Under the pieces are notes generated by a model. The model was not told the origin of the DNA and ran no database searches. It was given only the letters and a program-made list of their open reading frames with translations. A stretch of DNA of 64,000 bases. Source: Streptomyces albofaciens JCM 4342. GTDB taxonomy: Bacteria > Actinomycetota > Actinomycetes > Streptomycetales > Streptomycetaceae. The stretch is taken from positions 2,436,001 through 2,500,000 of the forward strand of contig NZ_PDCM01000002.1 in assembly GCF_008634025.1 (NCBI RefSeq), in the 5' to 3' direction. The translations under genes and the position numbers were made by a program. Position 1 is the first letter of the stretch, and each line of letters begins with the position of its first letter. This document shows positions 41,870 through 47,765 of the stretch, in pieces.

Positions 41870-42166
41870 AGCGGGCACTCCTTCGTACGTTGCTGATGCG
41901 GCGTTCGTTTCTCCAACATGATCGTCCGCCTGCCGCCTTCCCGGACCACGGACACGCCACTCCGGCACACCCGCCGCACGGGGCGGACGGCGGCGCTCCG
42001 GTCAACCGGGTACCCGGCCGCGCACCCTCCGCACCGGCGCGATGACGGCGCACGCCGACCGCTCCCGGAACGATCACACGCGCCGGTGCGCGGGACATGC
42101 GCCCTCGCACCGGAGCCGTACGCTCCGCTAGCGTCCGCAACGCCCACCGCGACCACCGGGGGAGCC

Positions 42167-42265
42167 ATGGACGTGAAGCACCGGAGCCCGATCGGCGATG
42201 ACGGGCAGCAGCCGGGCCGGCCGGTTCCACCACCCGCGCCCCGGCCCGAGCCGGACGAGGGGTGA
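42167..42265 (+). CDS. 32-residue peptide ORF coupled to the methyltransferase gene; possible RiPP precursor
   Basis: MDVKHRSPIGDDGQQPGR and a Pro/Glu/Arg-rich end (about PPPAPRPEPDEG). The ATG has GGGGGAGCC immediately upstream, an excellent ribosome-binding site, and the TGA overlaps the methyltransferase GTG (42262-42265). It carries an Asp-Asp-Gly, the favoured site of aspartimide formation, and a second Asp-Glu-Gly near the end. It has no Cys, so it is not a lanthipeptide-type precursor. Alternatives: a leader peptide that couples translation of the methyltransferase, with no product of its own. No homologue is recognised. Confidence 0.55.
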   Translation: MDVKHRSPIGDDGQQPGRPVPPPAPRPEPDEG

Positions 42266-43458
42266 CCCCCACGTCCTCCCCCGCCCCTTCCCCTGCCTCC
42301 TCTCCCTTCCCCTCGTTGCTTCCCTCCCCCAAAACCCTCCTCGCCCAAGTAGCCGACACCCTCGGCCACCCGGTCGCCCCGTCCGGGGCCGACGCCGTAC
42401 GCGCGGTGCCCCGCGACCGGTCCCTGCCGGACCGGATCCGGCTCCGGGACGGAAACGGGGGCTATGCGCTCTGCGACCGCGCGGTGGAGCCGGAGCGCTG
42501 GGGTGCGGCGGCGTTCAGCGACGCGCCGCTCGTGACGCGGATCAAGGAGGACGCCGACGGGTTCCAGGAGCCCACGTCGTCGGCCTCCGCGCCCGCCACG
42601 GTGCTGCGCATGCTGGAGGAGGCCGGGATCGCCGACGGGCAGCGGGTGCTGGAGACCGGGACCGGGACCGGGTACCACGCCGCGCTGCTCGCCCACCGGC
42701 TCGGGGACGGTCATGTGGTGAGCGTCGAGATCGATTCCGCGCTCGCCGACACCGCCCGCGCCGCCCTCAAGACCGCGGGGCGCACGCCCACCGTCGTCAC
42801 CGGCGACGGAGCGCTGGGCCACGCCGCTGCCGCCCCGTACGACCGGATCATCGCCACCTGCTCCGTACGGGCCGTCCCCGCGGCCTGGCTCGCGCAGACG
42901 CGGCCCGGTGCCCGCCTCGTCGTACCGTGGAGCACCAGCTGGATCACGTACGGCACGCTGGTCCTGACCCGCCGCCCGGACGGCACCGCCGACGGCCGGT
43001 TCGGGGGCTACGGCTCGTACATGGTGATGCGCGGCCAGCGGGCGGAGACGGTCCTCGACCGCGATCTCGTGCGCGACGGGCAGCGGCCCGGCCGGTCCGA
43101 AACGGCGCTCTCTCCGTGGGCCGTGGCGGGCGGCGACCTCGACGCGCGGTTCGCCGTCGGTCTTCGGGTGCCCGATGTGCGGCATTCCTGGGACACCGCG
43201 ACGGACGAGGTACACACCCGCCTCTGGCCGGCCGACGACGCCGCGACGTCATGGGCGTCCGTGGACCACGACGGTCGGCGGACCGCCGCCTTTTCCGTAC
43301 GGCAGCACGGGCCGCGCCGCCTCTGGGACGAGGTGGCCGCGGCCCACCGGCAATGGATCCGCGCGGGCGGGCCCCGCGTCGCCGGCCACGGCCTGGCCGT
43401 CACCGCCGACGGACACGAGGTGCGGGTTCAGGGGCGTCGGCCGCCCCCGGGAGGCTGA
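42262..43458 (+). CDS. protein-L-isoaspartate O-methyltransferase (PIMT) homologue, long form
   Basis: A 398-residue SAM methyltransferase. Motif I is VLETGTGTGYHAALLAHRLG, post I is VVSVEID, motif II is PYDRIIATCSV, motif III is RPGARLVVPW; the PIMT substrate loop is EPTSSASAP. Ordinary PIMT is about 215 residues; the extra about 170 C-terminal residues (from about 230) match my memory of PIMTs tied to RiPP maturation (graspetide, lanthipeptide, lasso and imiditide clusters). GTG start overlaps the upstream 32-codon ORF. It should methylate an Asp carboxylate of a peptide, giving an ester or aspartimide. No ATP-grasp or lanthionine enzyme is nearby. Confidence 0.88.
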   Translation: MTPTSSPAPSPASSPFPSLLPSPKTLLAQVADTLGHPVAPSGADAVRAVPRDRSLPDRIRLRDGNGGYALCDRAVEPERWGAAAFSDAPLVTRIKEDADGFQEPTSSASAPATVLRMLEEAGIADGQRVLETGTGTGYHAALLAHRLGDGHVVSVEIDSALADTARAALKTAGRTPTVVTGDGALGHAAAAPYDRIIATCSVRAVPAAWLAQTRPGARLVVPWSTSWITYGTLVLTRRPDGTADGRFGGYGSYMVMRGQRAETVLDRDLVRDGQRPGRSETALSPWAVAGGDLDARFAVGLRVPDVRHSWDTATDEVHTRLWPADDAATSWASVDHDGRRTAAFSVRQHGPRRLWDEVAAAHRQWIRAGGPRVAGHGLAVTADGHEVRVQGRRPPPGG

Positions 43459-43465
43459 ACAGCGA

Positions 43466-43494
43466 AGCGCCCCCCGGCCTCGCCAGGGGGCGCT
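43466..43494. terminator. 9-bp stem bidirectional terminator between the PIMT gene and dps
   Basis: AGCGCCCCC pairs perfectly with GGGGGCGCT around an 11-base loop. It lies 8 bp after the PIMT stop codon and 25 bp before the dps stop codon, so it serves both converging transcripts. Confidence 0.8.
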
Positions 43495-45477: not shown

Positions 45478-46278
45478 TCACCGTGCGGAGTCCCCGTCGT
45501 CCCGGGTCCGCGGCGCGGCCTCGGACCGCCCCTCGGCCCGCGCCGAGCTCCCGGCGGGCTCGCCGCCGCGCGCCTCCGCGGTGCTCCCGGCGGGCTCCCC
45601 GTCGCGTACCGCGTGCGCCTCCGCGGCCGCCCTGGCCCGCTCCTGCGCCTGTACCGCACGCGCCTCGGCCAGCCCGGCCCGCCGCAGGACGACCGCCTGC
45701 CGTACGTAGTCCAGTCCGGTCACGACGGTCAGCACCACGGCCACCGCCATCACCCACCACCGGAACGTCGCCAGCGGCCCGTTCAGCAGGAGGACGTACA
45801 TGCCCACGGCGGTGCCCTGCGCGAGCGTCTTGATCTTCCCGCCGCGGCTGGCGGGGATGACCCCGTGTCTGATCACCCAGAACCGCATCAGCGTGATGCC
45901 CAGCTCGCGGAAGAGGATGACGCCGGTCACCCACCACGAGAGGTCGTCCAGCACGGACAGGCAGATCAGCGCCGCTCCCATGATCGCTTTGTCCGCGATC
46001 GGGTCGGCGATCTTGCCGAAGTCCGTGACCAGGTTGTACTGGCGCGCGAGATGGCCGTCGAACAGGTCGGTGATCATGGCGATGGCGAAGGCGGCCCAGG
46101 CGAACGAGCGCCAGGCCGGGTCGTAGCCGTCGCCGTGCATCAGCAGCAGCACGAAGGCCGGTACGAGCAGCAGCCGCACCATGGTCAGGACGTTGGCGAT
46201 GTTCCACAGCCCGGCCGTCCGGACGGCCGGCGCCGGGCGGTGGTGCCCACCGGCCGCGGAAGCCGGGACTCCGGTCAT
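45478..46278 (-). CDS. pgsA: CDP-diacylglycerol-glycerol-3-phosphate 3-phosphatidyltransferase
   Basis: A 266-residue CDP-alcohol phosphatidyltransferase making phosphatidylglycerol phosphate. The family motif D-x2-DG-x2-AR-x8-G-x3-D-x3-D is complete in [26 protein letters not shown]. About six membrane helices follow. A charged Ala/Glu/Arg-rich tail of about 65 residues ([18 protein letters not shown] and repeats of GGEPAGS) is unusual. Its ATG overlaps the rimO stop codon (ATGA at 46275-46278). Confidence 0.92.
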
Positions 46279-47765
46279 CTGCCCGCCTCCTCAGAACACG
46301 GCACGCCGTCCACCGACAGCACCTCGGCCACCAGGTCGACGCCTTCACTCGCCACGGCCTTTGCTTCGACCATACGTCCCGGCGCAAGGTCGAGTGAGGT
46401 CCGCAGCAGGGTCACGCCGTCGGTCTCGGGCGCCTGGTGCGCGGCCCGGCCCACGACCCCGTCCTCCTCGTCGACGCTGTCCACCAGGACGGTCAGGGTC
46501 TCCCCGAGGCGCTCCTCGGCGCGCTGCGCGGTCAGCTCCTCGGCCAGCCGCGAGATGCGCGCGAGGCGTTCGGCGACCTCGTCCGGGTCCACCTTGCCGT
46601 CGTACGTGGCCGCCTCGGTGCCGTCCTCGTCCGAGTAACCGAACACACCGATCGCGTCCAGTCGCGCCCCGGTCAGGAAGCGCTCCAGCTCGGCCACGTC
46701 CTCCTCGGTCTCACCGGGGAAGCCGACGATGAAGTTCGAGCGGGCGCCGGCCTGCGGCGCCTTCGCACGGATCTGCTCCAGCAGGCCCAGGAAGCGGTCG
46801 GTGTCGCCGAAGCGCCGCATCGCGCGCAGCACGCCCGGGGCCGAGTGCTGGAAGGACAGGTCGAAGTACGGGGCGACCTTCTCCGTCTGCGTCAGCACGT
46901 CGATCAGGCCCGGCCGCATCTCGGCGGGCTGGAGGTAGCTGACCCGGATCCGCTCCAGGCCGTCGACGGCCGCCAGCTCCGGCAGCAGCGTCTCCAGCAG
47001 GCGGATGTCGCCCAGGTCCTTGCCGTAGGAGGTGTTGTTCTCGGAGACCAGCATGATCTCCTTCACCCCCTGCTCCGCCAGCCAGCGCGTCTCGCCGAGC
47101 ACGTCGGAGGGGCGGCGCGAGATGAAGGAACCGCGGAAGGACGGGATGGCGCAGAAGGAGCAGCGGCGGTCGCAGCCGGAGGCCAGCTTCACGGAGGCCA
47201 CCGGGCTGTTGCCCAGCCGCCGGCGGAGCGGGGCGCGCGGCCCGGAGGCGGGCGCGACCCCCTCGGGCAGGTCCTCGGGGGCCGAGGCCAGAGCGTCCCC
47301 GTGGCCGGGCAGCGCCACACCGGCGGCGTCCTGCCGCTCGGCCGGGCTGATCGGCAGCAGCTTGCGGCGGTCGCGCGGAGCGTGGGCCTCGACATTGCCG
47401 CCGCTCAGGATCGTCCGCAGCCGGTCGGAGATGTCGGTGTAGTCGTCAAAGCCGAGCACGCCGTCGGCCTCCGGCAGGGCCTCGGCCAGCTCCTTGCCGT
47501 ACCGCTCGGCCATGCAGCCGACGGCCACCACGGCCTGGGTGCGGCCGTGGTCCTTCAGATCGTTGGCCTCCAGCAGGGCATCGACGGAGTCCTTCTTGGC
47601 GGCCTCGACGAATCCGCAGGTGTTGACGACGGCGACATCGGCATCGGCGGCTTCCTCGACGAGCTCCCAGCCGTCCGCTGCCAGGCGGCCTGCGAGCTCC
47701 TCCGAGTCCACCTCGTTACGGGCGCAGCCAAGGGTGACAAGGGCGACGGTACGGCGTTCGGGCAT
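46275..47765 (-). CDS. rimO: ribosomal protein S12 methylthiotransferase RimO
   Basis: A 496-residue radical-SAM enzyme that methylthiolates Asp89 of ribosomal protein S12. UPF0004 Cys are in [34 protein letters not shown]. The radical SAM triad is [17 protein letters not shown] at about residue 200, and a TRAM domain ends the protein. An inserted Pro/Ala-rich region before the radical SAM motif is present. It shares ancestry with miaB at 9.5 kb. ATG at 47765. Confidence 0.95.

Follow-up and report, generated by a model that had tools for sequence, protein, structure and literature searches.

The window analysed here is a stretch of 64,000 nucleotides from Streptomyces albofaciens JCM 4342 (contig NZ_PDCM01000002.1, positions 2,436,001 to 2,500,000 of the forward strand). 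It contains a pair of genes coupled through a GTGA stop-start overlap (Table 1), namely a 32-codon open reading frame (ORF) and the gene of a 398-residue homologue of protein isoaspartyl methyltransferase (PIMT). A preliminary description of the window had reported this arrangement, together with an Asp-Asp-Gly sequence in the short peptide and an extra C-terminal domain on the long PIMT, and all of this was borne out. The peptide is rich in proline (28.1%), glycine (12.5%) and aspartate (12.5%). Its ribosome-binding site, previously called excellent, was overstated, since GGAG lies just 2 nucleotides from the ATG at 42167 and 8 nucleotides from the in-frame GTG at 42173, which is the better placed start; translation may therefore begin at either codon, giving 32 or 30 amino acids.

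Table 1. Features of the two-gene locus (positions within the window).
Feature	Position	Strand	Remarks
Precursor peptide ORF	42167..42265	+	ATG start, TGA stop; MDVKHRSPIGDDGQQPGRPVPPPAPRPEPDEG, 32 aa
Alternative in-frame start of precursor ORF	GTG 42173	+	gives 30 aa
GGGGGAG, Shine-Dalgarno-like	42158..42164	+	2 nt before ATG 42167, 8 nt before GTG 42173
Asp12-Gly13 codons, predicted aspartimide/isoaspartate site	42200..42205	+	Asp-Gly in 49/49 distinct relatives
GTGA stop-start overlap (translational coupling)	42262..42265	+	ORF boundaries
PIMT-homologous O-methyltransferase (PAMT)	42262..43458	+	GTG start, 398 aa; PCMT domain, profile matches
Putative S-adenosylmethionine-binding motif region ETGTGTGYHA, residues 131-140	42652..42681	+	invariant residues in enzyme alignment
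PAMT C-terminal domain, residues 277-392	43090..43437	+	predicted model
WIRAGGP = WXXXGXP motif, residues 365-371	43354..43374	+	motif of RiPP-associated PIMT homologues (PMC13001092)
Hairpin without T-tract, between PAMT gene and convergent dps	43466..43494	+	z -2.39

The PCMT/PIMT domain of the enzyme (PF01135) spans residues 97-224 (E 5.6e-27), and TIGR04188, the model of graspetide methyltransferases, matches near full length, reaching 304 bits where the cut-off is 380. Models of housekeeping PIMT also scored under their cut-offs (TIGR00080, 85.7 of 159 bits; NF001453, 92.6 of 188), and whereas the housekeeping repair PIMT (Pcm) has about 215 residues and no C-terminal domain, the window enzyme has 398 and carries one. 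A two-domain PIMT fold is predicted, with residues from about 277 to 392 forming a separate domain of strand-helix-four strands-helix topology plus two strands, and the model aligns with the Thermotoga maritima PIMT (1DL5) over both domains. Residues E131, G133 and G137 are invariant across 20 aligned enzymes; the stretch ETGTGTGYHA is presumably the S-adenosylmethionine (SAM) binding motif.

A search with the peptide alone over 392 Streptomyces genomes gave at least 19 places at E below 1e-3 among the matches listed. Fourteen lie immediately in front of an enzyme of this type, three belong to an enzyme-less relic treated below (G279, G197 and G258), one, at E 4.2e-4, is an unrelated frame (L046 in G073), and the nineteenth (G166:C138) was counted in neither the linked nor the unlinked group. 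A fifteenth enzyme-linked copy, in G133 (L008), had E 0.026 and was recovered by the enzyme search too. Counting the source genome, at least 15 of the 392 genomes carry the peptide in front of this enzyme, and the cassette is present in a few percent of Streptomyces species. In the 15 enzyme-linked copies, all of which were found without the motif pattern, the ratio of non-synonymous to synonymous change (pN/pS) over a core of 19 codons was 0.175 in the peptide frame, against 1.56 and 4.10 in the two alternative frames. The short ORF is under purifying selection, and this, together with its recurrence upstream of the same enzyme, makes it more than a chance ORF.

Scanning GTDB species genomes for the pattern KHRSP-[I/V/M]-GDDG gave 28 matches, 27 of them actinomycete (26 titled Streptomyces and one Streptosporangium, two lying in one genome) and one in a Bacteroidia metagenome-assembled genome; this last (L069), with neither enzyme nor proline-rich tail, was taken as chance. 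A methyltransferase lies downstream of 22 of the 27 actinomycete matches, among them one with a broken enzyme frame (L079), one matched in its C-terminal part only (L080) and two cut by sequence ends (L081, L089), and four of the five enzyme-less ones are one shared recombined relic. Searched with a profile, a set of 5.8 billion proteins yielded 16 peptides of the family, each with DDG. The preliminary description had asked whether other Streptomyces keep the short ORF in front of this type of enzyme and whether its Asp-Gly is fixed: many species do keep it there, and Asp-Gly is present in all 30 enzyme-linked copies (15 found by the pattern that demands DDG, 15 without it) and all 16 database peptides.

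The family consensus reads H-x-x-P-x-x-[D/S]-D-G-x-[Q/K]-P-x-[R/K]-P. The 30 enzyme-linked peptides, the 16 from the profile search and seven further ones found through the enzyme were pooled and merged from the first His, start variants of one peptide being counted once, which left 49 distinct relatives. Asp-Gly is kept in 49/49 and DDG in 47/49, and [D/S]-D-G-x-[Q/K]-P-x-[R/K]-P is present in all 49, of which 35 were seen independently of the motif pattern. The two exceptions, which read PSDG, are from Embleya sp. NBC_00896 (L159) and another genus of the family (L175), and only the enzyme led to them. Among the precursors of the related classes E, F and G, defined below, 11 of 11 have SDG or GDG. 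Since the first Asp can be replaced (by Ser in two relatives, by Ser or Gly in classes E, F and G) and Asp-Gly is invariant, the predicted site of modification is Asp12 (codon 42200-42202), which precedes Gly13.

The pairing was then viewed from the side of the enzyme, by examining the ORFs upstream of the best-ranked 70 enzyme matches from a search of 150 genomes. A small Gly/Pro/Asp-rich ORF precedes 64 of these 70 related Streptomyces enzymes, in seven recurrent classes (6 A, 11 B, 21 C, 15 D, 4 E, 3 F and 4 G), class A being the KHRSP class; at the other six (L003, L009, L017, L108, L128 and L134) no such ORF was found. Class labels were set by hand for L029, L101 (partial precursor), L119 and L133 within this survey, and for L044, L034/L080, L047 and L048 outside it. 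In a tree of 93 enzymes, including loci found via peptide and motif (a quick method, midpoint root, support by the Shimodaira-Hasegawa-like approximate likelihood ratio test, SH-aLRT, only), the precursor classes change 11 times, as against a mean of 55.5 for shuffled labels (0 of 200 shuffles as low), and class A makes up 29 of the 31 rows of one supported group; L081 (83 residues) was dropped from this tree and L079 kept with its broken frame and long branch. Precursor class and enzyme phylogeny are linked, and for the most part a given enzyme clade comes with a precursor class of its own. Strict WXXXGXP in the last 90 residues was found in 23 of 29 class A enzymes and in 74 of 93 overall. 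An enzyme-profile search over 150 genomes of the family yielded 30 loci that were read upstream by eye, with A-type precursors at the window, L162, L167, L170 and L175, an E-type precursor at L182, and class B or other precursors at most of the rest.

Type I pamtides or imiditides, of which 1414 cases were counted, are made from two-gene clusters that pair a linear Gly/Pro/Asp-rich precursor with a PAMT bearing a C-terminal domain (PMC10787088, PMC13001092). As described, SpaA-SpaM of Streptomyces sparsogenes and NmaA-NmaM of Nonomuraea maritima have the same two-gene-only layout as the window pair, likewise with a short linear Gly/Pro/Asp-rich precursor bearing one conserved Asp and a PIMT homologue with a C-terminal extension of more than 100 residues and WXXXGXP. 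The published precursors have about 45 residues and a mean proline content of 16.8%, whereas the window peptide has 32 residues and 28% proline. The residue after the target is His in NmaA and, for the predicted target, Gly in the window peptide, and the window C-terminus is acidic (DEG) where type I precursors feature conserved charged C-terminal residues. The window precursor has the core KHRSP-[I/V]-G-DDG-x-QP-x-RP, which may set its subfamily apart from SpaA and NmaA. The string KHRSPIGDDG was not found in open-access full text, a search that covered neither figures, supplements nor the authors' dataset, so this subfamily may be among the published cases. Type II pamtides or cysimiditides (FcaA-FcaM) share the two-gene cluster, the PAMT and the conserved Asp (Asp-Gly in FcaA), but have two CXXCXGXG motifs; the 30 KHRSP peptides examined contain no Cys, and hence no zinc-ribbon hairpin.

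The earlier suggestion of an imiditide-like ribosomally synthesized and post-translationally modified peptide (RiPP) is thus supported, in that layout, C-terminal domain, WXXXGXP and the lack of another maturase match what is described of type I pamtides and imiditides. The locus is best filed, by the defining features tested, as a member of this kind in a KHRSP subfamily. We regard it as highly likely that the two genes on their own form a complete RiPP cassette of the type I kind, with the 32-residue peptide as substrate.

The enzyme probably converts one fixed aspartate of a proline-rich peptide into a ring. By analogy with SpaA/SpaM and NmaA/NmaM, from which the chemistry of the locus is inferred, the downstream PAMT would recognise the linear peptide, presumably through its C-terminal domain, and with SAM as methyl donor would turn the side-chain carboxylate of Asp12 into its methyl ester. 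Attack by the backbone nitrogen of Gly13 would then expel methanol and give an aspartimide, which would hydrolyse mainly to isoaspartate. The described products of SpaA and NmaA include methyl ester, aspartimide, and unmodified-mass or hydrolysed forms (PMC10787088, PMC13001092).

Around the window pair, the ORFs scanned (ten in one scan, two in others) include no other maturase, as had been claimed. These are housekeeping-like, comprising Lhr helicase, Fpg-like, porphobilinogen deaminase, PPOX, Dps, helix-turn-helix (HTH), CinA, CDP-alcohol phosphatidyltransferase, UPF0004/radical SAM and RodZ-like proteins; the sole radical-SAM protein among them (46275-47765) has a UPF0004-Radical_SAM-TRAM architecture, which we take to be of the housekeeping RimO/MiaB type. 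Of the terminator said to follow the enzyme gene, a strong hairpin stood; a scan for T-tract terminators found none there and that part was dropped, as was an RNA element, with no Rfam match at the locus reaching its gathering score. Nor could a clean empty site for the cassette be shown, the PPOX gene being found in 13 of 61 genomes at the thresholds used and adjoining dps only in the source genome (G000) and G047.

The flanks of 27 class A loci were read with a home-made ORF finder, which listed 44 genes, and 30 of these were scanned with Pfam, of which ten gave no match. Among the rest are AnmK, phage sheath, PIG-L, SDR, alcohol dehydrogenase, GH38, glyoxalase, subtilisin inhibitor and GNAT, two transposase families, and DUF397, beta-lactamase and alpha/beta hydrolase families twice each. 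In an all-against-all comparison of flanks of unequal length, the most recurrent neighbour clusters of class A reached 4 of 30 distinct enzymes (an HTH-DUF5753 type, at L016, L039/L095, L074 and L083, and one transporter-like by eye), and no protease, transporter or immunity gene recurs past 4/30 at the class A loci examined. The class A pair is a largely free-standing cassette. Over all classes, HTH-DUF5753 clusters lie near 27 of 94 distinct pamtide-type enzymes (for example at L014, L016, L023, L074, L098, L114 and L116), and DUF6879 genes near 14 of the 94, none in class A; one representative of each cluster was confirmed by Pfam.

Such surroundings bear on the best surviving alternative, a reversible protein-methylation or regulatory module in which a small intracellular protein is switched at Asp12 between ester, imide and isoaspartate to control something else. 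It would suit both the want of recurring protease, transporter or immunity genes and the HTH-DUF5753 neighbours. However, no target is shown, and HTH-DUF5753-type regulators are abundant in Streptomyces; we judge this reading unlikely.

The preliminary description had itself named another alternative, that the short ORF is a mere translational-coupling leader; it would then set the methyltransferase level, and its amino-acid sequence would be irrelevant. The overlap in the window, and the GTGA or TTGA overlaps of 11 of the 30 family members, are what such a leader would show, but 19/30 relatives lack any overlap, the amino acids are strongly conserved while synonymous change is free, and related peptides recur amid differing flanking genes, as well as on plasmids and in another genus. 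The idea was rejected on pN/pS and has very little left to recommend it.

About equally improbable is the reading of the enzyme as an orphan methyltransferase of the graspetide type (TgmC, TIGR04188), with a graspetide encoded elsewhere in the genome as its substrate. Its homology to the graspimiditide methyltransferases is near full length, and the genome has a TIGR04187 ATP-grasp on another contig. Yet the TIGR04188 score is under the curated cut-off, the locus has no ATP-grasp partner, and the enzyme has a conserved peptide of its own, to which it is coupled. The reading was rejected through an ATP-grasp search of the genome, in which both matches fell on contig C1 and none on the contig of the window, and the graspetide locus there has an adjacent methyltransferase-like ORF of its own (C1:68386-69429). 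That locus, C1:67154-69429 (L136, L066, L067), consists of a graspetide-type ATP-grasp (TIGR04187, 384.9 bits, above cut-off) followed by the methyltransferase-like ORF, matched in two pieces. In another genome (G072), the PAMT homologue without a pamtide precursor at L134 lies directly 3' of an ORF with an ATP-grasp-like end, as judged by eye, and is perhaps part of a graspetide cluster.

An isoaspartyl PIMT of general repair function, extended at its tail and next to an unrelated conserved small protein, is hardly credible either: the PF01135 domain and the C-terminal domain of the T. maritima enzyme (317 residues, named a repair-type PIMT in the PDB, as against 398 here) speak for it, but precursor class follows enzyme phylogeny and a Gly/Pro/Asp-rich ORF directly precedes 64/70 related enzymes. 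We know of no precursor partner of the T. maritima PIMT.

Several observations weigh against a dedicated substrate-enzyme pair. Seven peptide copies without enzyme (L040, L041, L043, L073, L075, L086 and L087, some of which may be one genome present in two collections) belong to one recombined relic, closely similar across loci, in which the first half of a KHRSP precursor is joined, within the proline run, to a decayed ORF in another frame, by eye a carbamoyltransferase; in L043 the site now reads GDQG. A new architecture was considered for these loci and dropped in favour of a relic. An eighth enzyme-less copy, L088, stands alone. The enzyme frame is broken in L079/L038, and only a C-terminal part is matched in L080/L034. 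Conversely, of the eight enzymes of the class A clade found by the enzyme search within the 70, six have an intact peptide and two do not, L003 having only a precursor-like tail and L009 none that was found, both with open enzyme frames; a peptide search of their genomes (G063 and G097) gave nothing convincing elsewhere (best E 0.29 and 0.61). Finally, the C-terminal residue is K or R in 22 of 30 relatives, and the window peptide, which ends in DEG, is without the usual C-terminal lysine.

The unusual tail was compared with the enzyme, C-terminal residues having mattered in SpaA (PMC10787088). Precursor-tail and C-terminal-domain charge gave a Spearman coefficient of -0.36 (p 0.07, n=26, leaving out L081 and L089, which are cut, and L034 and L038, with broken or partial enzyme). 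In a post hoc split that includes sister lineages, the domain charge was 0 or above in 3 of 8 acidic-tail pairs and in 0 of 18 others (Fisher p 0.02); the window enzyme has a domain charge of +1, the 18 non-acidic-tail pairs -1 to -11. That the acidic window tail is matched by an unusually uncharged C-terminal domain is a lead only.

Two more pamtide-type pairs were seen in the source genome, at C1:2237795-2238841 (L105) and C1:1178720-1179781 (L114), with precursors of class C (NPQDDSDSGNKHGGGGSDEGGNTNDGQGPAEGR) and class G (KKGGDDSGRPDTSDSDGHRDRPPGPTKPYEPPKG). KHRSP or related pairs also lie on large plasmid records of Streptomyces nigrescens SNP1, Streptomyces sp. NBC_00158 and 3211, and Embleya NBC_00896 (L077, L158, L159 and L160); the peptide is unlisted in the PLSDB gene tables, which are incomplete, for L158 and L160. 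It is conceivable, though we hold it rather doubtful, that several orthogonal PAMT-precursor pairs work side by side in Streptomyces (A, C and G in this genome), with specificity set by tail and C-terminal-domain electrostatics and the window pair charge-swapped. If charge matching were true, the window pair would combine an acidic tail with a neutral or basic domain, as opposed to the common basic tail and acidic domain.

The biological role of this RiPP class is described as an open question in a review (PMC13001092). For this class, the locus described here represents a conserved minimal substrate-enzyme pair, with a precursor of 30-32 residues and Asp12 as its predicted site. Pamtide-type pairs are common in Streptomyces, at times with several per genome, and since precursor class mostly follows the enzyme clade, exchanges between classes could reveal the basis of specificity.
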